From: Sulfuriroseicoccus oceanibius
GTDB taxonomy: Bacteria; Verrucomicrobiota; Verrucomicrobiia; Verrucomicrobiales; SLCJ01
Assembly: GCF_010681825.2 (NCBI RefSeq)
Contig: NZ_CP066776.1
Location: 2,046,001-2,110,000, forward strand
DNA: 64,000 nt
Direction of reading: 5' to 3'
Below the pieces are notes generated by a model, which was given only the letters and a program-made list of their open reading frames with translations, was not told the DNA's origin and made no database searches. The position numbers and the translations under genes are program-made. Shown piece by piece: positions 32,707 through 45,383 of this stretch (its first letter is position 1; the number at the start of each line of letters is the position of its first letter).

Positions 32707-33915
32707 TCAGGCTGCGGACGTTTGATTTGAAGTAAGGCTGAGCTTTTGGGCTTCTTTGAGGTGATCCATGTTCAGGTAGCGGTGTTGATCGATCCACTGC
32801 TCATGGACTTGATGCGTGACAGCCCGGATTAAACGTTGGGCTGCAGCCTGGTTGGGGAAGGTTCGGATAATGTGCGTACGACGCTTAATCTCCTCATTGA
32901 GTCGCTCGAGCATATTCGTGCTTTTGAGATGCTTGTGATGCTCTCTGGGAAGTCGATAAAAGGTGAGCGTTTCTTCGATCTCACTTTCGACCCAGTCACA
33001 GAGCTTGTGGTATTTGCCTCCCCACTTCGCCAACCATGCCCGCAGATCCTGACGCGCTTCATTGATGTCTCGACGGTCATAGATCCAGCGCAGCTCGGTG
33101 CAGCAGTCGTCGTCATGCTTGCGAGGTAGATGATCAAGAGCGTTGCGAAGGAAGTGGACGTAGCAGCGTTGCCACAGCGCCTCGGGAAGCACTTCGCTGA
33201 TAGCTCGTCGCAGGCCGGCATGGTTATCAGTCACGCAGAACTCAACACCCGTCAGTCCGCGTTGCTTGAGTTGAAGTAGGAAGTTCTTCCAGCTGCTTCC
33301 GCTTTCCCTTTGATCGAGCTCGGTAGCAAGGACCTCCCGTCGGCCATCCCAACTGATGCCAATGGCGATCAACACAGCCTGGCTGCGCACCACGCCGTTC
33401 TCTCGAACCTTTTCGTAGCGGGCATCCAGGATGAGGTAAGGATAAGCGTGGTTGAGCTTGCGTCGGGCAAAGTTCTCAAGCTCTTCGTCCAACGTTTTGT
33501 TCAGCCTGCTTACCACACTGGCGCTGACCCGGTGACCGCAGAGCTCCTCGGTGATCTGCGCGACTTTACGTGTCGAGACGCCCTGCACGTACATTTCGAT
33601 CAGGGTGCTTACCAAAGCCTTCTCGCTGCGTTGATAGCGATCGAAGATCTCGGTGCTGAAGAGTCCGTCGCGATCTTGAGGGACGCGCAGCTCGATCCTT
33701 CCTACCCGTGTCAGGAGACTGCGTTGATAACTGCCGCTGCGATAACCTCGGCGTCTGTCGCTGCGTTCTGATTTTACCGCCTGGAGTGTCTCGTTCATTT
33801 CTTCTTCGAGCATCTCCTGCATCAATTTCTGAACCAAGGGCCTCAGAAAATCTTCCTGCTCGGCAAGAATACTTTTCAACTGCGGCGTTGTGGTCTTATC
33901 TGGTCGTGGGGTCAT
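32707..33915 (-). CDS. IS256-family transposase
   Basis: 402 residues, intact. DDE-type transposase (mutator-like). The first catalytic Asp lies in YLILDARYEKVR, the second in FCVTDNHAGLRRAI, and the Glu in STNMLERLNEEIKRR, followed by the typical RTFPNQAAAQRLI. The C/H signature CYVHFLRNALDHLP is also present. The N-terminal DNA-binding part carries YRSGSYQRSLLTRVGRIELRVPQDR. Length and motifs are complete, so the element may still be mobile. Confidence 0.96.
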   Translation of the reverse strand: MTPRPDKTTTPQLKSILAEQEDFLRPLVQKLMQEMLEEEMNETLQAVKSERSDRRRGYRSGSYQRSLLTRVGRIELRVPQDRDGLFSTEIFDRYQRSEKALVSTLIEMYVQGVSTRKVAQITEELCGHRVSASVVSRLNKTLDEELENFARRKLNHAYPYLILDARYEKVRENGVVRSQAVLIAIGISWDGRREVLATELDQRESGSSWKNFLLQLKQRGLTGVEFCVTDNHAGLRRAISEVLPEALWQRCYVHFLRNALDHLPRKHDDDCCTELRWIYDRRDINEARQDLRAWLAKWGGKYHKLCDWVESEIEETLTFYRLPREHHKHLKSTNMLERLNEEIKRRTHIIRTFPNQAAAQRLIRAVTHQVHEQWIDQHRYLNMDHLKEAQKLSLTSNQTSAA

Positions 33916-33998: not shown

Positions 33999-34119
33999 GT
34001 GAGGTTTCATTGGGCAAGGTGTTGAGGTGGGTGATTGATTATCTGGCGGGGCGTACTCTCTTCTAAGATGAAGAGCGATTGGGCTGTTAGTCTGCTGCCT
34101 GTTCGATAAGTTGATTGCT

Positions 34120-35649
34120 ATGAAATTGGTAACCGTCATCGCTGCTGCGGCCGGATTGCTTTCCTCGGTAGTGGCAAACGATCATCCTAATATTGTCTTA
34201 ATCCTTGCCGACGATATGGGAGTCGGTGATGTCTCTCATGATGGCGGGGTGGCTCCCACTCCGCATCTCGATCGTTTGGCAGATGAAGGGATGCGCTTTA
34301 CCGATGCGCACACCACGTCGTCGGTCTGCACCCCATCGCGATACGGACTGCTCACCGGGCGCTACAACTGGCGCACCCGCTTGCAGCGATCAGTTTTCTT
34401 CGACGTCAGGGACAAGCCGTTGATCAAAGATGATGAGTCCACGATCGGCAGCTTGCTGAAGGAGGCGGGATACAGCACGGCGATCATCGGGAAATGGCAT
34501 CTCGGGTTTGAGTGGCAGTTTAAAAAGAGCTTATGGCGTGAGCATCATCTGACGGGAAAGGGCTGGGATGTCGATTATAGCAAGCCCTTGATCACTGCGC
34601 CGACCGCCAATGGATTCGATTACTTCTACGGAATCATGGCATCTCTCGACATGGCGCCATATGTTTACGTTGAAAATAACCAGGCGGTGGGTGTTCCGGA
34701 CGTGACCAAGGCGTTCCATCGTCCGGGCGCCGCGACCTCGGATTTCGAAGCAAACGAATGTCTGCAGGTGTTTGCAGAGAAATCGGTCGAGTTCATCAAC
34801 GCCAAAGCAAAGGAGGGGCAGCCCTTCTTTCTGTATCTGCCGTTGACCTCACCTCACACGCCGATTGTTCCAAGCGAGCGGTGGTTGGGGAAATCGGGGA
34901 TTGGAAAATACGGAGACTTCCTGATGGAGACCGATTGGGTGGTGGGGCAGGTGCTGGCAGCTCTTGAGAAAAATGGAGTCGGGGAGAATACGCTGGTGCT
35001 TTTTACCGCCGACAACGGATGCTCGCCTGCTGCGGGGATCGACGAGCTGGTAGCTCACGGACATCTGCCAAATGGCAAGCTGCGTGGAGCGAAAGCGGAT
35101 TTGTATGAAGGTGGGCATCGCGTTCCAACCGTGGTGCGTTGGCCCGGTGTGGTGCCTGCGGGATCCGTAACCGACCGATTGACTTCACTGGTCGATGTGT
35201 ACGCAACATTTGCCGACATCGTGGGGGCGACGCCTGATGCCAGCGATGGGGTGGATTCCATCTCCTTTTACGAGACTTTGCGGAACCCTGAGAAAGGTGA
35301 ACGTGGCGTGGCGATCGTGATGCATTCGTTCTTCGGTAAGTTCGCGATCCGGCATGAAAACTGGAAGCTGCTCTTCAGCGCTGGGTCCGGAGGGTGGAGT
35401 CGTCCGCAACATGGCAATGAGGGCGATCCCATGTGGCAGCTCTACGACTTGGATGCGGATTTGCAGGAGAGCACGAACCTCTTACACGAGCATCCTAATA
35501 AGGTTAAAGAGCTGCATGCCATGATGATTGAGTTCATCAGAAGGGGGCGGAGCACTCCCGGTGCAAAGCAAGCGAACGACGTGGAGGTCGCGGTTCCGAA
35601 AGTTGATGACGACTCCAAGAAGCTGCCTCCGGTGAGGATGGGGATCTAG
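34120..35649 (+). CDS. Exported type I sulfatase
   Basis: 509 residues from the ATG at 34120, with a signal peptide (1-19, ending VVA). The alkaline-phosphatase-superfamily sulfatase fold is clear: metal-binding DD at 31-32 (ILADDMGVGD), and the signature CTPSR with Cys70, the residue oxidised to formylglycine by a maturase. IIGKWHLGF and the later LFTADNGCSP carry further active-site residues. It should hydrolyse sulfate esters, probably on sulfated sugars; the exact substrate is unknown. No maturase is in the window. The IS256 element ends 121 bases upstream of the start and could affect its promoter. Confidence 0.93.
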   Translation: MKLVTVIAAAAGLLSSVVANDHPNIVLILADDMGVGDVSHDGGVAPTPHLDRLADEGMRFTDAHTTSSVCTPSRYGLLTGRYNWRTRLQRSVFFDVRDKPLIKDDESTIGSLLKEAGYSTAIIGKWHLGFEWQFKKSLWREHHLTGKGWDVDYSKPLITAPTANGFDYFYGIMASLDMAPYVYVENNQAVGVPDVTKAFHRPGAATSDFEANECLQVFAEKSVEFINAKAKEGQPFFLYLPLTSPHTPIVPSERWLGKSGIGKYGDFLMETDWVVGQVLAALEKNGVGENTLVLFTADNGCSPAAGIDELVAHGHLPNGKLRGAKADLYEGGHRVPTVVRWPGVVPAGSVTDRLTSLVDVYATFADIVGATPDASDGVDSISFYETLRNPEKGERGVAIVMHSFFGKFAIRHENWKLLFSAGSGGWSRPQHGNEGDPMWQLYDLDADLQESTNLLHEHPNKVKELHAMMIEFIRRGRSTPGAKQANDVEVAVPKVDDDSKKLPPVRMGI

Positions 35650-35736
35650 TGTTCGTGCCCTTGCTGGAGTGGTCGCGTTTGAGGTGAGGAAATTCCGCGC
35701 TGGTGACCATCTCGTCACTTGCGGAGTGCTCTATTC

Positions 35737-35751
35737 TTTGATAATTCCAAA
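35737..35751. promoter_or_regulatory. Candidate ArsR operator
   Basis: TTTGATAATTCCAAA, an imperfect palindrome with TTTG/CAAA arms, just before the arsR start. It resembles ArsR/SmtB operators in form. No Shine-Dalgarno is visible here. Assignment by position and shape only. Confidence 0.35.
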
Positions 35752-35754
35752 ACC

Positions 35755-36075
35755 ATGGAAATGAATGCAGCAGTCGACGCGCTTTCCGCGCTGGCCCAAC
35801 CATCGAGGTTGGAGGTGTTTCGGCTGCTTGCACGGCACGGCGAGGACGGCCTGTGTGCCGGTGATATCTCGGACCAGCTGCGTATTCCCAAAGCCACGTT
35901 GTCGTTTCATTTGAAGGAACTCAGCGGGGCGGGGCTGGTCAGTTCGGAGCGAAATGGGCGGTCGATTATCTATCGACTTCACGTCAAGGGGATGCAGCAA
36001 CTCATGAGCTTCTTGTCAGAGGATTGCTGTCAGGGGCGGCCCGAGCTTTGCCAGCCTGGTGCTTGCGACTGCTAG
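35755..36075 (+). CDS. arsR: ArsR-family arsenic-responsive repressor
   Basis: 106 residues from the ATG at 35755. The winged helix is clear: [17 protein letters not shown], then [25 protein letters not shown] and the wing [13 protein letters not shown]. Cysteines are at 34 (GLCAGD) and clustered in the tail: C91, C92, C99, C104 and C106 ([17 protein letters not shown]). The classic helix-alpha3 CVC arsenic site of E. coli ArsR is missing, so the sensor is likely the C-terminal cysteine group, as in some other ArsR subgroups. Position ahead of GAPDH and arsJ supports arsenic sensing. Confidence 0.9.
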
Positions 36076-36110
36076 TTTATCAATTTCAATCAACTCACAC
36101 CTACATCACT

Positions 36111-37106
36111 ATGAATATCGCAATTAATGGATTCGGCCGTATGGGCCGCCTTGGGTTCCGTGCCGGCTGGGATTGTCCGGATTATCAGATCACCCGCGTC
36201 AATGAACTGCATGGCACCGCGGAAACTGCTGCGCACTTGTTGGAGTTCGATACCGTTCACGGGCGCTGGGACCGCGGCATTGGCCACACAACTGACAGTC
36301 TGATTGTGGAGGGCAAGAGCATTGCCTTTAGCAATGCGCCGACACCTGCGGAGATGGATCTCACCGACGTCGACATCGTGATCGACGCTACCGGTGCCTA
36401 CCGCACGCCGGAGTTGCTTCAGCCTTACTTCGACGCCGGCGTGAAGAAGGTGATTGTCGCCTGCCCGGTCAAAGAGGGAGCTCTCAACGTCGTGATGGGC
36501 TGTAACGACCACTTGTACGATCCTGCTGAACACCATCTGCTCACTGCGGCGTCCTGCACGACCAACTGCATCGCGCCTGTGATCAAGGTGATCTTTGAAA
36601 AGCTGGGCATCGTCCACGGCATGATCACGACCATGCACGATGTGACCAACACACAGACCGTGGTGGACGCGCCGCACAAGGACCTGCGCCGCGCCCGTTC
36701 GTGCCTGAACTCGTTGATCCCAACCTCGACCGGATCAGCGACGGCGATCACGATGATTTACCCGGAGCTCAAAGGGAAGCTCGACGGCGTGGCGGTGCGT
36801 ATCCCATTGCTCAACGCATCGCTCACCGACATCGTGCTTGAGTTGCCAAACCCTACGACGGTGGAAGAAGTCAACGGTTTGCTCAAGGAAGCTGCCGATG
36901 GGGAGCTCAAGGGAATCCTGGGCTTTGAAGAGAAGCCGCTGGTCTCGACTGACTTCACCAACGACGTGCGATCGGGGATTGTCGATGGTCCGTCGACGAT
37001 GGTGACCGACGGCACCCAGCTCAAGTTGCTTGTCTGGTACGACAACGAAGTCGGCTACGCCACACGCATGATGGAATTGGCGGCGAAGGTGGCTCGCTCG
37101 ATCTAG
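36111..37106 (+). CDS. ArsJ-associated glyceraldehyde-3-phosphate dehydrogenase
   Basis: 331 residues from the ATG at 36111. NAD-binding INGFGRMGR comes first; the catalytic Cys149 lies in [11 protein letters not shown] and the assisting His176 in TTMHDVTN, the classic GAPDH numbering, with the [12 protein letters not shown] ending. When arsenate replaces phosphate, GAPDH makes 1-arseno-3-phosphoglycerate. Sitting between arsR and arsJ, this copy is most likely dedicated to arsenate detoxification rather than central glycolysis. The gap to arsR is 35 bases, to arsJ 143 bases. Confidence 0.93.
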
Positions 37107-37167
37107 CACGCCTGTGCAGCTGCCTTTTTTGGACAGGATTCACATGATTGGAATGATCGCGCGATGC

Positions 37168-37189
37168 GCGGGAAGGGCGACCTTCCCGC
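37168..37189. repeat. Hairpin between GAPDH and arsJ
   Basis: A perfect 9-bp stem GCGGGAAGG with CCTTCCCGC around loop GCGA (GNRA type), without a following T-run. It could tune arsJ expression or mRNA stability, or be a member of the intergenic hairpin family. Confidence 0.6.
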
Positions 37190-37249
37190 CGTCTGTCGGC
37201 CAAGTCAGAGCAATGCGACTTCGTTCCTAACCATTCAAGAACCTACCGA

Positions 37250-38431
37250 ATGAACCTCCGTAGTTACGGCATTGTTACTGCATCGTACTGGGGCTTTACG
37301 CTGACTGACGGAGCGTTGCGCATGTTGGTGCTGTTGCACTTTCATGCGCTGGGCTACTCGCCGGTGCAGTTGGCGTTTTTGTTTCTGCTGTACGAGTTCT
37401 GCGGCGTGCTTACCAACTTGCTGGGTGGGTGGATCGGGTCGCGCACCGGGCTCAACGCAACGCTTTACGCCGGGCTTGCGTTGCAGGTGGTGGCGCTGGT
37501 GATGCTGTCGTTGGTCGACCCGAACTGGGCGGCGTTGTTGTCGGTGAGCTACGTGATGACGTCGCAGGCGCTGTCCGGGATTGCCAAGGACCTCACCAAG
37601 ATGAGCTCCAAGAGCGCGGTGAAATTGCTCACTCCGGACACGGATGGGGCGTTGTTCAAATGGGTCGCCATCCTGACTGGCTCGAAGAATGCCCTGAAAG
37701 GCGTGGGCTTCTTCCTCGGCGGAGTGCTGCTCACCTGGCTGGGGTTTGTGCATGCCTTGTGGTTCATGGCCGGGGCCTTGGCGCTCGTGTTGATAGGTGC
37801 GTTGGCATTCCTGCGTGAGGACATGGGCAAGAGCAAACGCAAGGTGAAGTTCACCCAGTTGTTCTCCAAGAGCCGTGAGATCAACTGGCTCTCCGCCGCG
37901 CGGATGTTTTTGTTCGCTTCGCGCGACGTGTGGTTTGTCGTGGCGCTGCCCGTGTTCTTGAAATCGACTCTCGGCTGGAGCTTCAACCAAGTCGGGGCGT
38001 TCATGGCAGCGTGGGTGATTGGCTATGGCTTCATCCAGGCGGCGGCGCCCAAGCTGGTGCGTCGCGGCGACGTGCGCAGTGCGGCTGCGGTTTGGGTTGG
38101 ATTGCTGACTCTGGTCACCGCGGGGCTGGCGCTTGGGGTGCAGTTCGAGTTCCATCCTGTGGCGTCGATTCTGGTGGGGCTTGGGTTGTTTGGTTTGGTG
38201 TTCGCGGTGAACTCATCGGTCCACTCGTATTTGATCCTCGCGTTCACCGATCACGATCAGGTAGCGGTGAATGTCGGGTTTTACTACATGGCAAACGCGT
38301 GCGGCCGGTTGTTGGGAACCTTGCTCTCCGGCGTGATGTTTTTGGTCGGCGGGCTACCGGCGTGCCTCTGGACCAGCGCGGGATTGTTGGTCACCGCGTT
38401 GATCTTCACGCTGCCGTTGAGGAGAGGCTGA
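37250..38431 (+). CDS. arsJ: Organoarsenical efflux MFS transporter ArsJ
   Basis: 393 residues with about eleven to twelve membrane segments. The N-terminus SYGIVTASYWGFTLTDGALRMLVLLHFHALGYSP and the segment SGIAKDLTKMSSKSAVK with the following LFKWVAILTGSKNALKG are ArsJ-type signatures. In known systems ArsJ exports 1-arseno-3-phosphoglycerate, which then breaks down outside to arsenate, giving net arsenate export with the partner GAPDH. The gene order arsR, GAPDH, arsJ supports the assignment. Confidence 0.92.
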   Translation: MNLRSYGIVTASYWGFTLTDGALRMLVLLHFHALGYSPVQLAFLFLLYEFCGVLTNLLGGWIGSRTGLNATLYAGLALQVVALVMLSLVDPNWAALLSVSYVMTSQALSGIAKDLTKMSSKSAVKLLTPDTDGALFKWVAILTGSKNALKGVGFFLGGVLLTWLGFVHALWFMAGALALVLIGALAFLREDMGKSKRKVKFTQLFSKSREINWLSAARMFLFASRDVWFVVALPVFLKSTLGWSFNQVGAFMAAWVIGYGFIQAAAPKLVRRGDVRSAAAVWVGLLTLVTAGLALGVQFEFHPVASILVGLGLFGLVFAVNSSVHSYLILAFTDHDQVAVNVGFYYMANACGRLLGTLLSGVMFLVGGLPACLWTSAGLLVTALIFTLPLRRG

Positions 38432-38729: not shown

Positions 38730-39986
38730 ATGAGCAAGGTTCTTGTTGTTGGAAAAGGCGGGCGCGAACACGCGCTGATTCGTGCATGTGTTGAGTCGAC
38801 GAGCGAGACGGAGGTTTTCGCGTGGCCGGGCAGCGATGCGATTTTTGATCTGGCGAAGCCAACGCCTGTGACCGATTTCGACAGCTTGGTCGAATGGATC
38901 GGCGGCGGAAATGTTGATTTGGTGGTTGCCGGCGAGGAAGCTTGGCTCGTTTACGGTGAAGGTCTCGCCAATGCCTGCGAGCGCCTTGGGGTTCCTTGCT
39001 GGGGGCCGAAGAAGGAAGCCGCTCAGCTCGAGGCGAGCAAAGAGTTCGCCAAAGAGTTCATGGTGCGTCACAACATTCCAACCGGTGGCTACGTGACCGT
39101 CGATAACATCGCCGACGCCCGTGCTGCGATTGGTGACAGCTATCCGTGTGTACTCAAGTTCGACGGACTCGCCGCAGGCAAGGGGGTGGCAGTCTGCCCT
39201 GACTCGGTGGCTGCCGAAGAGTTCCTCGATGAAGTGTTTACCACACGTCGTTTCGGTGAAGGTCGCCTAGTGGTCGAGGAATTCCTGACCGGACCTGAGG
39301 TTTCGATCTTCGTTTCCGTGGTCGATGGCGAATACCAGATCCTGACACCAGCACGCGACTACAAGCGCCTGGCCGACGGCGATCTCGGGCCAAACACAGG
39401 TGGCATGGGCGCGGTTGCCGGACGCTCGTTGCTCGACGCGGAGACCTTGGCGATCATCGAAGAAACCGCTGTGAAGCGTACGGTTGAGGGATTGCAAAAG
39501 GACGGTCTTCAGTACCGCGGCTTCCTCTACTTCGGCTTCATGCTCACGCCGGAAGGGCCAAAGCTTCTCGAATACAACTGCCGCTTCGGCGATCCTGAAT
39601 GCCAGGCGGTGATGCCTCTGGTGAGCGGTGATTTCACTAGCTACGTGATGTCGGGAGCCAAGGGCAAGCTCGACACCTCGCTGATCGACTTCTCGTCCGA
39701 TTGGAGTGTCTGTCTTGTGGCAGCGTCCGCTGGTTATCCTGCCTCGTCGCGCAATGGGGATGTGATCCGTGGTCTCGATGAGGTCACCGGCGCACGCGTC
39801 TACCATGCGGGTACCAAGAAGAACGAAGCGGGTGAGTTCGCGACCAATGGAGGTCGTGTGCTGGCCGTGGTCGCGCAGGGCGCAACTCGTCAGGACGCCG
39901 TGGCTGCAGCTTACGAGCAGTTCAACAAAGTCGACTTCGACGGATCCCAGCGCCGCACCGATATCGGTACGGCTAACTTCGACTAA
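38730..39986 (+). CDS. purD: Phosphoribosylamine-glycine ligase
   Basis: 418 residues from the ATG at 38730, where the fold begins MSKVLVVGKGGREHAL; the open frame upstream comes from repeats. Second step of purine synthesis: ATP-dependent joining of glycine to phosphoribosylamine. ATP-grasp features are clear: LKFDGLAAGKGVAV, GRLVVEEFLTGPEVSIFV, DYKRLADGDLGPNTGGMGAV and LLEYNCRFGDPECQ with the magnesium ligands. It has its own terminator and no other pur genes nearby. Confidence 0.95.
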   Translation: MSKVLVVGKGGREHALIRACVESTSETEVFAWPGSDAIFDLAKPTPVTDFDSLVEWIGGGNVDLVVAGEEAWLVYGEGLANACERLGVPCWGPKKEAAQLEASKEFAKEFMVRHNIPTGGYVTVDNIADARAAIGDSYPCVLKFDGLAAGKGVAVCPDSVAAEEFLDEVFTTRRFGEGRLVVEEFLTGPEVSIFVSVVDGEYQILTPARDYKRLADGDLGPNTGGMGAVAGRSLLDAETLAIIEETAVKRTVEGLQKDGLQYRGFLYFGFMLTPEGPKLLEYNCRFGDPECQAVMPLVSGDFTSYVMSGAKGKLDTSLIDFSSDWSVCLVAASAGYPASSRNGDVIRGLDEVTGARVYHAGTKKNEAGEFATNGGRVLAVVAQGATRQDAVAAAYEQFNKVDFDGSQRRTDIGTANFD

Positions 39987-40167: not shown

Positions 40168-41187
40168 ATGATGATCAAACACTTTATCTTCGACTGGTCG
40201 GGAACCCTCGCCGACGACTTGCCTCCGGTGCTCGATGCGACCAATAAGTTGCTGGAGAACCACGGCAAGCCGACCTTTTCTCGTGATGCTTTCCGCGAGG
40301 CGTTCCAGCTTCCGTTCAAGGGGTTTTATGATCGCGTGCTGCCCGGGGTCTCGCTCGACGACCTGGAGGTGGAGTTCGGCGAGTATTTCTCCAACTCTGA
40401 TGAACCTGTGACGCTGCTGCCGTATGCGGCGGAGTTTCTCGACTTCTGTAAAAAGCGTGGCGGCAAGATTTTCATCCTTTCGAGTGCTCGCGATGAGTTC
40501 CTCCGCCAACAGGCGACCGAACTCGGCGTGATCGATCGCTTCGACCACATCTACGCCAGTGTTTTGGACAAGCGCGAGATGATCTGGAAGATCCTCGAAA
40601 CCCATGGACTGAATGCCGACGAGACGGCTTTCCTAGGGGATATGATCCACGACGTGGAAACCGCGCAGCACGCCGGGGTGCATTCGATTGCACTGCTCAC
40701 CGGGTACGACAGCGTGGCCAAGCTCAGTGCGGTGAATCCGGACCTGATCGCCACGAATCTGCGCCAGCTTAGTCGGATGATGGCAATGCCCGTCGACGGA
40801 CGGAGCGAGGGGATTCAGCTTTCCGGCGGCGTGGTGCGGGTCGAGCGCTTGGAGATTCCTTGCTTCATCGGCGTGCCGGACGAGGAACGCGCCGACGAAC
40901 AGATGCTGTGGGTGGACATTGATGCGCACGTTTCCACCGCCTGCTTTGCTGGCGATGACGCGATCGACGCGACGGTGGACTACCATGCGCTGTGTCTGGC
41001 GGTGCGTGAGCTGGCGGCGGCGCGTCCGCGGCAGTTGGTCGAGACGCTGGCACGCGAGATCATTGAATGCGTGCTCACTGGTTTTGCGGTGGACAAAGTA
41101 GACGTCCGGATCCGCAAGAAGATCCTCGATTTCACCGATACGGTGGGTGTCTCGCTGAGTGGTGAGCGCAGCGGGATGGTGCGCTGA
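40168..41187 (+). CDS. HAD-family phosphatase fused to dihydroneopterin aldolase
   Basis: 339 residues; two complete domains on one chain. Residues 1-205 are a HAD hydrolase: nucleophile Asp9 in DWSGTL, motif II SS at 105-106, Lys135, and GDMIHD (157-162) for magnesium. The usual second Asp of the DxD motif is Ser11. Residues 220-335 are FolB: VERLEIPCFIGVPDEERADEQ, DYHALC and the lysine segment RIRKKILDFTDTVGVSL. FolB cleaves dihydroneopterin to hydroxymethyl-dihydropterin plus glycolaldehyde in folate synthesis. The step just before needs a phosphatase for dihydroneopterin phosphate, so the fusion suggests the HAD half does this; that is inference. Confidence 0.88.
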   Translation: MMIKHFIFDWSGTLADDLPPVLDATNKLLENHGKPTFSRDAFREAFQLPFKGFYDRVLPGVSLDDLEVEFGEYFSNSDEPVTLLPYAAEFLDFCKKRGGKIFILSSARDEFLRQQATELGVIDRFDHIYASVLDKREMIWKILETHGLNADETAFLGDMIHDVETAQHAGVHSIALLTGYDSVAKLSAVNPDLIATNLRQLSRMMAMPVDGRSEGIQLSGGVVRVERLEIPCFIGVPDEERADEQMLWVDIDAHVSTACFAGDDAIDATVDYHALCLAVRELAAARPRQLVETLAREIIECVLTGFAVDKVDVRIRKKILDFTDTVGVSLSGERSGMVR

Positions 41188-41807
41188 GTGGGATGGTGCT
41201 TGAAGGAGGATTCTCACGCAAAGACCCGAAGAACCCAAAGTTTCTTTAGTAGAAAGAGTGGGCGGTGCCGTGGCTGCGGAGCCGTGCTTGCTTGCTTGCT
41301 TGCGTTGGCCTGAATGAGAGTGGGTGAGGGTGTCGTGTTGAGTCGAGAACGGCCATCGGGAGGGAGCAGCGCTTTGGCGGAGTCGAACGCTCGGCCGGGA
41401 ATGGGATTGCGGAGTGACCTGGGGTGGCGCTCGCCTGAGGCTCGCTAACCCCAGGCTGTTATGAGTCTCGCTTTCAGCGAGGGATCAGCAGGGACTGCGC
41501 TGATGATGCGGAGTTATTGTTGGGGCTTTGGGATCTTTGGGTCTTTGCGTGAGTCTACCTCGATGGGGGGGGCATGTTGGTGGTTCGCCCGATCTTTGTT
41601 CTTCGGGCGATGCGGGGTTTGATCGGTGTTCTTGTTGAGACTTAGGGGGTTGTCTCGCGGTGGCGTGGGGTGTCGGATGCGGATGGCTCAGTTTGTTGAA
41701 TTGTCCGTTGGATGCCACCCGATGTGGTGTGCTATAGTGCGCGATTCCAGCCGGCGCATGTGCGCCGGTTCTCGTTTGTCACGTTTGTTCTGATTGATCG
41801 ACCTACT
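41188..41807. repeat. Intergenic region with inverted and short repeats
   Basis: About 620 bases without a gene. An inverted pair lies at 41213-41240 and 41526-41553 (word CTTTGGGTCTTCGGGTCTTTGCG and variants; each arm over 20 bases); a third copy is at 53094-53120. Also present: a (CTTG)4 run near 41289, a CCTGGGGT/ACCCCAGG stem (41418-41455) and a hairpin CTCGCT-TTC-AGCGAG (41467-41481). The SNF2 promoter should lie near 41700-41800. Confidence 0.65.
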
Positions 41808-44800
41808 ATGACTCCAGACCGCACCATCATTAACTTCCTGAACTCGTTCCGCGATGAAGATAGAAAGGAGGGGGAGTTGGTCTTCAAGGACCAGGCGGTG
41901 ACTCAAATTTTTGGCACTGAGCGCTTTGTTCAGGCTCGTGTTGAGATCGACCGCGCGTACCGCGTGGCGCTTACCAAGCAGGAAGACGGCAAGTGGGAAG
42001 GCGAGTGCGTGCCGTGGGATCACCACAGCAAGTCGGCAATGGTGGCCGCGATGCTTGCCCGCATCGAGCGCGGGGACAAATTGCCGGCATCACCTAATGA
42101 GCTGGGTCAGAAATCGTTCGGTGAGATCCTGGAGGAGAAACTGGAGCGTCCGCTCAAGCGCTTCGAGGAGGCTTACATCGAAAAGCTCGAGAAACGCTAC
42201 CAGCGCTACGAGACCAAGCAGGAGATTCTCGATACCGACCTGATCCGCCTCAACCCGAAATGGGAAGTCACCAGCTACGATCCGCTGGAACTGTGGTCGA
42301 CCCCTCCGACTAACATTAACGAGTTTTGGAACTACATCGCCTATGCCTTCGAGAAGAAGGGCGTGGGCTACCCTCCATTCATGAAGGTGGTCACCAACAC
42401 GGACCAGACCGCCGACGACATGGAGCAATTTGAAACCGCCAAGGAACGAGAGATCTGGCAGAACCGCTTGAGCAATGCATTGCAAGGAGCGGGGCGTCGT
42501 CGTCGCGAGCCGGCCACGCTGAGCGTGCGTCTGGTGGTGAGCTATTCGGATGCGCGTCTTTTTGCCTCGGTGACCGAGCCGGGCGGTGAGGCGGCTGAGT
42601 TTGCCGAATGGCCGACGGTTGCCGAGTTCCGCACGGCGTTGGAGAAGCTGGACAAAAACGAGTGGGCTGCCTCTGCGGACGTGGCATTGCTGGTACGTTA
42701 TTTGTACGATTTCCTGAATGCTGAGGACACGGATCTGATCGACCTCGAATCCGAGGCCGCTTGCCGATTGCTCAACAAATTGTTCAGCGACGAGGCAATG
42801 CGCCAGCATCTCTACACGCTGGACGACCATTTGTTCCGTCTGTCCGATGTGCGCTTTGGCTGGGAAGCCCGCGACCGCGACGAGGATCCCGACCACTACG
42901 CCATTCAGTTGGTCACTGACGAGGGCAAGGACGTGCCGCACACGGTGCGTGTGTTGCCAGGCACCGAGGACCTCTATCTCTCCGACGAGACGCTTTTCCG
43001 CGGGCCGGACTGGTGGCTGGAGAGCACGTCGATCGAGCCTGAATACGTGATCGAGAAATCGTTCATCGAGAACCCTGAAGGGGTCGAGTTTCTGGCTCGT
43101 ATTGGCGCCAAGTTGCCAAAATCGCTGCAGGACCGCGTGGTCGAGCAAGATCTCCACGTCGCGTTGAACTTGCGCATGGTTTCCGCACTGACCACCGCCG
43201 ACAGCGAGCACCTGGTGGCGGAGATCACCGCGAGCTCGGATGATGAATCACGCATCGAGCGCCTCATCCGCGACGGCTGGGTGATCGAGAAGCCGAAGGA
43301 CGGTGAGACCAGCGCCGATGGCAAGAGCAACATCATCCGCTACCGCCGTGACGACCTGATGCTGATGGAAGAGAGCCTCGAAGATGTCGGGCTTTCCTAC
43401 GACGCCGCATTGGGCGCGCACCGGGCCCGGGTGACCAAGGTTTTCCCTGAGCGTTTTGCCGAGTGGGCGGAGTCGCTTCCGGAGTCGATCAAAGTGACCG
43501 GCGATGATGTGGTCAACAGCTTGCTCTCCGATCCGGTGAGCGCGACGGTTCAGTTCGAAGTGAACCAGACGTCGATCGATTGGTTCGACCTCAAGATTGT
43601 CGTCAACGTCGATGGCGTGGATCTTTCGCAAGAGCAGATCCGCCAGCTGGTGGCGGCGCGCGGTGGCTTCGTGCGCATGCGCAATGGTCACTGGATGCGC
43701 ATTGAGATCGAAATGGACGAAGAGCAGAAAGCTGCGGTGACGCGTCTTGGTTTGGATCCATTCGACCTTTCGGGTGAAGAGCATCGCATGCACGTGTTGC
43801 AGCTCGCCGACCCTGGCGTTGCCGAGGTGTTCGACAAGAAGGTGTGGCAGAAGATTGAAAACCGCGCCGAAGAGCTCAACACCGAAGTGAAGCCGGACGT
43901 ACCGGAGAGCTTGCAGGCAACATTGCGTCCATATCAGCTCGAGGGCTTCCAGTTCCTCAGCTACCTGAGCAGCAACCGCTTCGGTGGTGTGTTGGCGGAT
44001 GACATGGGTCTCGGTAAAACGATCCAAAGTTTGACCTGGTTGTTGTGGGTTTACGAGAACACACCGGAAAAGGACCGCGTGCCTGCGCTGGTCGTGTGTC
44101 CGAAGTCGGTCTTGGACGTCTGGTCGTCTGAGATTGAGAAGTTCGCTCCGAAGTTGCGGGTGAAAGTGATCCGTGCGGGCGACGACCTCGACATGCCGTG
44201 GATTCAGGAGAACGTCGATGTGCTGGTGCTCAACTACTCTCAGCTGCGCTTGAGCGAGAAGCTCCTCGACATCGAATGGCAAGCCGTGGTGCTCGACGAG
44301 GGCCAACAGATCAAGAACCCGGACAGCAAAGCAGCCAAGGCTGCGCGCAAACTCAATGCACGCAACCGTCTGGTGCTCACCGGTACGCCGATTGAAAACC
44401 GCTTGCTCGACCTGTGGAGCTTGATGGCATTCGCGATGCCGGGCGTGCTCGGCAACCGTGCCTACTTCCGTTCTCGCTTCGACCGCCGCAAGGACACCAA
44501 AGCCCAGGAGCGTCTGTCGGCGCGTCTGCGTCCGTTCCTGCTGCGCCGAACCAAGAGCCAGGTCGCGATCGACCTGCCGCCACGTACCGAAGAAGATTAC
44601 TTCTGCGAAATGGAAGGCGTGCAGAAGCGCCTCTACGAAGACGAGCTCAAGCGCATCCAGCGACTGCTGCTCGGCATGGAGACCGATGCGGACTTGAAGA
44701 AGAACTCGTTCGCCGTGCTGCAGGGGCTGACGCGATTGCGCCAGATTTGCTGTCACCCTGGCCTGATCGACGAGGAGTACCTCGAGGAAGAGAGCGCCAA

Positions 44801-45383
44801 GATGAACTCGCTCTTCTACCTGCTCGACCAGCTGCGTGAGGAAGGGCACAAGGTGCTCGTGTTCTCGCAGTTCGTCAGCATGCTCGACATCATCAAGTCG
44901 CGCCTCGAGAAGGAGAAGCGTCCGTACTCGTACCTGACCGGCCAGACCAAGGACCGCCGTGAGGTGATCGATCAGTTCCAGAAGACCGACGATCCGAACG
45001 TCTTCCTGCTCTCGCTCAAAGCGGGTGGTAGTGGTCTGAACCTGACCTCGGCGTCGTACGTCATTCTGTACGATCCATGGTGGAACCCGGCAGTGGAAGC
45101 GCAGGCAATTGACCGAACCCACCGTATCGGTCAGACCCAGAAGGTGATTGCCTATCGTCTGTTGATGCGTGATTCGGTCGAACAAAAGATCCGCGTGCTG
45201 CAGCAGCAGAAGTCGCAGTTGTTCACCGACGTGCTCGGCACCGAGAGCTTCACCAAGACGCTCGATGTGGACGATCTCCACTACATCTTCTCGTCGGTCG
45301 CTGCGGATGACCGCGAGGAAGAAGAGAAAGAGCGACTCAAGGAAGAGAAGCGCAAGCGCCGCAGCCGTCGCTCGGACGACTAA
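41808..45383 (+). CDS. SNF2-family helicase-like ATPase
   Basis: 1191 residues from the ATG at 41808. The first 650 residues or so are a long, mostly alpha/beta N-terminal region typical of bacterial SNF2 proteins. The motor follows: motif I DMGLGKT (from residue 732), motif II DEGQ (830), LVLTGTPIENRLLDLWSLM, and in the second lobe VFSQFVSMLDIIKSRL, LKAGGSGLNLTSASYVI and DRTHRIGQ (about 1105). It should move along or remodel protein-DNA complexes using ATP; a link to transcription, as for RapA, is possible. A highly charged Lys/Arg/Glu tail ends it. The Minf_1886 gene follows 87 bases downstream. Confidence 0.93.
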   Translation: MTPDRTIINFLNSFRDEDRKEGELVFKDQAVTQIFGTERFVQARVEIDRAYRVALTKQEDGKWEGECVPWDHHSKSAMVAAMLARIERGDKLPASPNELGQKSFGEILEEKLERPLKRFEEAYIEKLEKRYQRYETKQEILDTDLIRLNPKWEVTSYDPLELWSTPPTNINEFWNYIAYAFEKKGVGYPPFMKVVTNTDQTADDMEQFETAKEREIWQNRLSNALQGAGRRRREPATLSVRLVVSYSDARLFASVTEPGGEAAEFAEWPTVAEFRTALEKLDKNEWAASADVALLVRYLYDFLNAEDTDLIDLESEAACRLLNKLFSDEAMRQHLYTLDDHLFRLSDVRFGWEARDRDEDPDHYAIQLVTDEGKDVPHTVRVLPGTEDLYLSDETLFRGPDWWLESTSIEPEYVIEKSFIENPEGVEFLARIGAKLPKSLQDRVVEQDLHVALNLRMVSALTTADSEHLVAEITASSDDESRIERLIRDGWVIEKPKDGETSADGKSNIIRYRRDDLMLMEESLEDVGLSYDAALGAHRARVTKVFPERFAEWAESLPESIKVTGDDVVNSLLSDPVSATVQFEVNQTSIDWFDLKIVVNVDGVDLSQEQIRQLVAARGGFVRMRNGHWMRIEIEMDEEQKAAVTRLGLDPFDLSGEEHRMHVLQLADPGVAEVFDKKVWQKIENRAEELNTEVKPDVPESLQATLRPYQLEGFQFLSYLSSNRFGGVLADDMGLGKTIQSLTWLLWVYENTPEKDRVPALVVCPKSVLDVWSSEIEKFAPKLRVKVIRAGDDLDMPWIQENVDVLVLNYSQLRLSEKLLDIEWQAVVLDEGQQIKNPDSKAAKAARKLNARNRLVLTGTPIENRLLDLWSLMAFAMPGVLGNRAYFRSRFDRRKDTKAQERLSARLRPFLLRRTKSQVAIDLPPRTEEDYFCEMEGVQKRLYEDELKRIQRLLLGMETDADLKKNSFAVLQGLTRLRQICCHPGLIDEEYLEEESAKMNSLFYLLDQLREEGHKVLVFSQFVSMLDIIKSRLEKEKRPYSYLTGQTKDRREVIDQFQKTDDPNVFLLSLKAGGSGLNLTSASYVILYDPWWNPAVEAQAIDRTHRIGQTQKVIAYRLLMRDSVEQKIRVLQQQKSQLFTDVLGTESFTKTLDVDDLHYIFSSVAADDREEEEKERLKEEKRKRRSRRSDD

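Follow-up and report, generated by a model that had tools for sequence, protein, structure and literature searches.

A HAD domain fused to FolB as a candidate dihydroneopterin monophosphate phosphatase of Verrucomicrobia

The window (the whole stretch of 64,000 nucleotides of Sulfuriroseicoccus oceanibius DNA that was analysed) carries a gene that joins a HAD domain to FolB, the dihydroneopterin aldolase of folate synthesis. Across Verrucomicrobia, HADs of the same kind, which share the motif DWSGT, are welded to FolB or lie beside it, often together with the enzyme of the preceding step, and this makes them strong candidates for a step that has no assigned gene. These observations strongly support a link of the DWSGT HAD to folate synthesis at the point where FolB acts. 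Earlier work ascribed the dephosphorylation that precedes FolB to an unspecified, non-specific phosphatase (PMC1971073), and in the open-access literature we found neither a named gene for the dephosphorylation of dihydroneopterin monophosphate nor a report of a HAD–FolB fusion. We infer, with a probability of roughly two in three, that the HAD half acts as a dedicated phosphatase of 7,8-dihydroneopterin monophosphate, possibly with Asp17 as its general acid/base.

The HAD–FolB gene (40168–41187, plus strand) is open over 339 codons from ATG to TGA in a reading-frame check, and encodes a protein of 339 amino acids. The HAD domain occupies residues 1–207 (40168–40788, plus strand), and the FolB domain (40834–41184, plus strand) follows a flexible linker of about residues 208–222 (40789–40833, plus strand). 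In Pfam, HAD_2 (PF13419) matches residues 7–175 above its cut-off (E 1.5e-21, 77.8 bits), and FolB (PF02152) matches residues 223–330 (E 1.3e-21; 77.7 bits against a gathering score of 31.8). An AlphaFold2 model, made from an alignment of 25 relatives, predicts, at a mean pLDDT of 90.2 and a pTM of 0.62, two domains that are well folded and a disordered linker joining them, where pLDDT is below 50 at residues 210–219. In a Foldseek comparison with solved structures, the N-terminal part had its neighbours among putative phosphatases and phosphoglycolate phosphatases, 2AH5 and 2HSZ among them, and the C-terminal part matched Vibrio FolB (3O1K). The claim of the first-pass annotation that a HAD and a FolB share one chain is thus borne out by the reading frame, the Pfam domains and the two-domain model.

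The same annotation had called the FolB half intact, and it is. Alignment with the S. aureus and E. coli enzymes places the S. aureus active-site residues E22, Y54, E74 and K100 at E240, Y272, E292 and K317, all of which are present in a domain that scores above the PF02152 gathering threshold. The FolB half lies above the broader FolB-domain model TIGR00526 (55.7 against 45.05) and below the cut-off of the equivalog TIGR00525 (62.0 against 72.15). It differs from the usual FolB in carrying the N-terminal HAD and in lacking the PIP-type loop that normally comes after the catalytic Lys.

Within the window, the fusion is flanked by a purD-type gene (38730–39986) and an SNF2-type helicase gene (41712–45383). 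Just upstream, at 35719–38431 on the plus strand, lies a complete arsenate-resistance ArsR–GAPDH–ArsJ set that includes the arsR-type regulator; the ArsJ-associated GAPDH matches NF033735 with 533 bits (cut-off 450) and MFS_ArsJ matches NF033734 with 580 bits (cut-off 400). A transposase of the IS256 family, with a full-length match, is found at 32707–33915 on the minus strand and adjoins a sulfatase-like gene at 34111–35649.

HAD–FolB fusions are also found in another genome of the genus (71% identity), within the family (45% identity) and in genomes labelled Akkermansia-like by inference (37–47%). This recurrence rules out a chance fusion or an accident of assembly. A survey of 142 genomes of the order showed fusions in two families, that of the window (f1) and another (f2) that holds the Akkermansia-like genomes and others; in other members the HAD adjoins a separate folB. 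Further fusions, and free-standing homologues beside folB, were what the first-pass annotation had proposed to search for, and both proved common. Among the 124 distinct DWSGT HADs from the loci collected, 37 are fused to FolB (35 as HAD–FolB and 2 as HAD–Nudix–FolB), and 65 immediately precede folB on its own strand with a gap of at most 71 bp, about 20 of them with a 4-bp overlap of start and stop. Four more are near folB in another arrangement, two sit at the end of a contig, and for 16 the stretch examined contains no folB; some HADs, such as those of family f8, lie away from folB.

In a genome-collection scan, the named relatives among the best 80 of 490 were almost all Verrucomicrobia, which places the window in that phylum. 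On a quick tree of the HAD domain, which gives no direction of change, the HAD–FolB state takes 9 changes, of which well-supported branches force at least 4, and therefore the joining (or splitting) of HAD and FolB has recurred; the Nudix label takes 13 changes on the same tree. One contig with HAD–Nudix and FolB (L103) belongs to a MAG labelled Candidatus Poseidoniaceae, an archaeon; it sits inside a Verrucomicrobial clade of the tree and is thus probably misbinned.

The Nudix domain is a third partner of this HAD. It is present at the C-terminus of 56 of the 124 distinct HADs, with its Nudix box intact, and in five genomes (G040, G044, G093, G096 and G110) a single unbroken HAD–Nudix–FolB chain of about 500 codons is encoded. 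FolK was considered as the identity of the additional domain that separates HAD from FolB in relatives and was rejected: the E. coli FolK query gave no match, and the domain is Nudix. Like the FolQ/NudB pyrophosphatases of dihydroneopterin triphosphate, the Nudix of the relatives keeps its Nudix box intact and would act one step ahead of the HAD; unlike them, it is no match to the NudB equivalog (29.7 bits, where the cut-off is 103, with NudI scoring higher), and it is absent from the window gene. A close copy of this folate-linked domain was found neither in the window genome, which has generic Nudix matches only, nor in G010 and G014. In one of the genomes of the order that have FolB and not the DWSGT HAD (L227:2212–3044), a Nudix of the folate-linked type is followed by folB and the HAD is missing. 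Taken in order, the domain set of Nudix, HAD and FolB matches three consecutive reactions, leading from dihydroneopterin triphosphate through dihydroneopterin monophosphate and dihydroneopterin to 6-hydroxymethyldihydropterin.

The HAD is also tied to FolB by its distribution. A HAD profile applied to 388 genomes of the phylum yielded 54 strong members, none with an E-value above 6e-69, separated by a clean gap from weaker paralogues (E 1e-31 or worse) and all belonging to the window's class; every one of these 54 genomes has FolB. FolB itself is present in 346 of the 388 genomes, so that most FolB genomes of other classes do without a DWSGT HAD. HAD and FolB are both missing from two Akkermansia-like genomes, G072 and G056 (the latter a single contig, 100% complete), which have kept FolE2 and FolK; a stand-alone FolP is kept in G056 and absent from G072. 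A PTPS-III bypass behind the missing pair received no support, since the PTPS of both genomes retains the Cys of the QueD-type motif. A search for a transaldolase-type FolB substitute found nothing in G056, and the one present in G072 is shared by the window genome. Within the order, several genomes or lineages carry FolB and no DWSGT HAD, indicating that this HAD is not a universal solution; inspection by eye of the ORFs nearest to folB in the FolB-only genomes recognised no replacement phosphatase.

In the window genome, the fusion is the sole FolB. This genome further encodes FolE2 (at 3055938) and no FolE, a single FolK (at 2258780), stand-alone pterin-binding genes of the FolP family besides a MetH-sized one, and a single PTPS of the Cys-bearing, QueD-like type. 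FolE was rejected as the entry enzyme, as 26 of 27 genomes lack it and use FolE2; G129 uses FolE.

The HAD half matches PF13419 and has D9, S106, K135 and D158/D162 all in place. Across 30 aligned diverse homologues, the nucleophile D9, K135 and the motif IV residues D158 and D162 are invariant, and S106 of motif II is nearly so. The first-pass annotation had described the catalytic residues as intact, which is right for D9, K135 and D158/D162; in the usual sense of the word it does not extend to motif I, which reads DWSGT in 121 of 121 distinct sequences and puts Ser11 at the +2 position, where canonical HAD phosphatases have the acid/base Asp of the DxD motif. Asp17 is invariant (30 of 30 aligned homologues, 121 of 121 distinct DWSGT sequences), and so is H161 of the GDMxHD motif. 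In canonical DxD relatives, position 17 is Ser or Thr and once Pro, for example in a paralogue from the window genome (FDFDGTIADT) and in PDB relatives (DLDGTLVDS and similar).

A possible role for Asp17 is suggested by beta-phosphoglucomutase. In the open form of that enzyme T16 contacts D10. D10 is its general acid/base, D8 its nucleophile and D15–T16 its hinge (PMC6713671), and Asp17 (codon at 40216–40218, plus strand) corresponds to T16 when the two are matched by counting along the motif. Since Ser11 stands in place of the usual acid/base Asp, the carboxylate probably comes from the invariant Asp17 at the cap hinge. Judged by conservation, a move of this carboxylate from +2 to the hinge is plausible, and H161 is an alternative candidate for the acid/base.

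Compared with HAD phosphatases of the PGP/HAD_2 type (PF13419; PDB 2AH5, 2GO7, 3MC1), the HAD half has the common fold, the C1-type cap, the nucleophile Asp, the Lys and the motif IV aspartates; it differs in having DWSGT rather than DxDGT, an Asp at hinge position 17, an identity of about 20–25%, and FolB or Nudix attached. Its best score against a curated phosphoglycolate phosphatase equivalog is 52.8 bits, below the cut-off of 225. A paralogous family with the motif DWNGTLLDD, found in other Verrucomicrobiota lineages, is also without the +2 Asp, also has Asp at 17 and has a GDxxHD motif IV; it differs from the DWSGT HAD in having Asn and not Ser at +2, and it does not adjoin folB where compared. 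The loci L242–L259, from other lineages of the phylum, contain HADs with DWNGTLLDD and GDTxHD motifs.

Estimates of dN/dS (Nei–Gojobori, eight pairs) were 0.03–0.12 for the HAD half and 0.06–0.24 for the FolB half, the HAD half being more constrained in every one of the eight pairs; for the pair of the window and L004 the values are approximate, because synonymous sites are near saturation. Together with the invariant residues, these estimates rule out a decayed HAD. On the evidence of sequence, the HAD half is functional and under purifying selection.

We propose that FolE2 would make dihydroneopterin triphosphate, from which a Nudix enzyme, in many relatives part of the same chain as the HAD, would remove pyrophosphate to leave dihydroneopterin monophosphate. 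Asp9 of the HAD would then attack the remaining phosphate through a Mg-dependent aspartyl-phosphate, with Asp158/Asp162 and Lys135 taking part and Asp17 as the probable acid/base, and dihydroneopterin would be released. The attached FolB would cleave this product to 6-hydroxymethyldihydropterin. This order of steps on the protein is part of the proposal. A wider proposal, which we put forward only tentatively, is that the DWSGT HADs form a family of dedicated dihydroneopterin monophosphate phosphatases with the carboxylate shifted from +2 to the cap-hinge Asp17, and that in some Verrucomicrobia the single-chain HAD–Nudix–FolB may hand intermediates on along three consecutive steps.

The first-pass annotation had argued from the fusion to a dedicated phosphatase, and that argument succeeds in part. 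Repeated fusions, operon adjacency, the Nudix on the chain, co-occurrence with FolB and purifying selection all speak for the pathway link and put it on much firmer ground than the fusion by itself could. Dihydroneopterin monophosphate is a putative substrate, the canonical DxD acid/base is missing, with Asp17 as a plausible replacement, and the HAD is not universal. Counting against the proposal are also the nearest solved structures, which are unspecific HADs and putative phosphoglycolate phosphatases, a Ser at +2 that is atypical for a phosphatase, the FolB-only lineages, the 16 of 124 HADs without FolB, and the want of a close folate Nudix copy in the window genome. This last point bears on whether the HAD, while serving the same pathway, is not specific for the monophosphate and also dephosphorylates the triphosphate or handles pyrophosphate. 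HAD–FolB fusions such as that of the window come without a cognate Nudix in the same protein, G010, G014 and the genome of the window lack a close folate-linked copy, and the structural neighbours of the HAD include a pyrophosphatase (BT2127, of the PDB 3QU2 group). We nevertheless consider such activity unlikely, as the most complete relatives retain a Nudix beside the HAD that would then be redundant, and HADs usually act on monoesters. It is more doubtful still that FolB accepts dihydroneopterin phosphate and that the HAD clears the released glycolaldehyde phosphate. This would fit the resemblance to phosphoglycolate phosphatases, to which the best named HAD models and many of the structural neighbours belong, all far below curated cut-offs; against it, phosphoglycolate phosphatases just make up the largest of the neighbouring families, the catalytic residues of this FolB are standard, and known FolB works on unphosphorylated dihydroneopterin (PMC1971073).

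The substrate of the HAD might also be unrelated or housekeeping, its joining to FolB reflecting co-expression only, and there are indeed FolB-only lineages that manage without the HAD and HADs that lie away from folB, as in f8. This is improbable given that the HAD has repeatedly been joined to and split from FolB and Nudix, when no other partner recurs as widely, and given the joint absence of HAD and FolB from G056 and G072. The missing second Asp of motif I could finally be taken to mean that the HAD half is catalytically dead and has a scaffold role. That is hardly credible, because all other catalytic residues are invariant and the HAD half is under stronger selection than FolB; moreover, P-type ATPases and phosphonatases are working HADs that have no Asp at +2.

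With a dedicated dihydroneopterin monophosphate phosphatase, the dephosphorylation that precedes FolB would have a concrete gene candidate in many Verrucomicrobia, Akkermansia among them. An acid/base role for Asp17, should it hold, would represent an unusual route by which HAD enzymes stay active without the second Asp of motif I.
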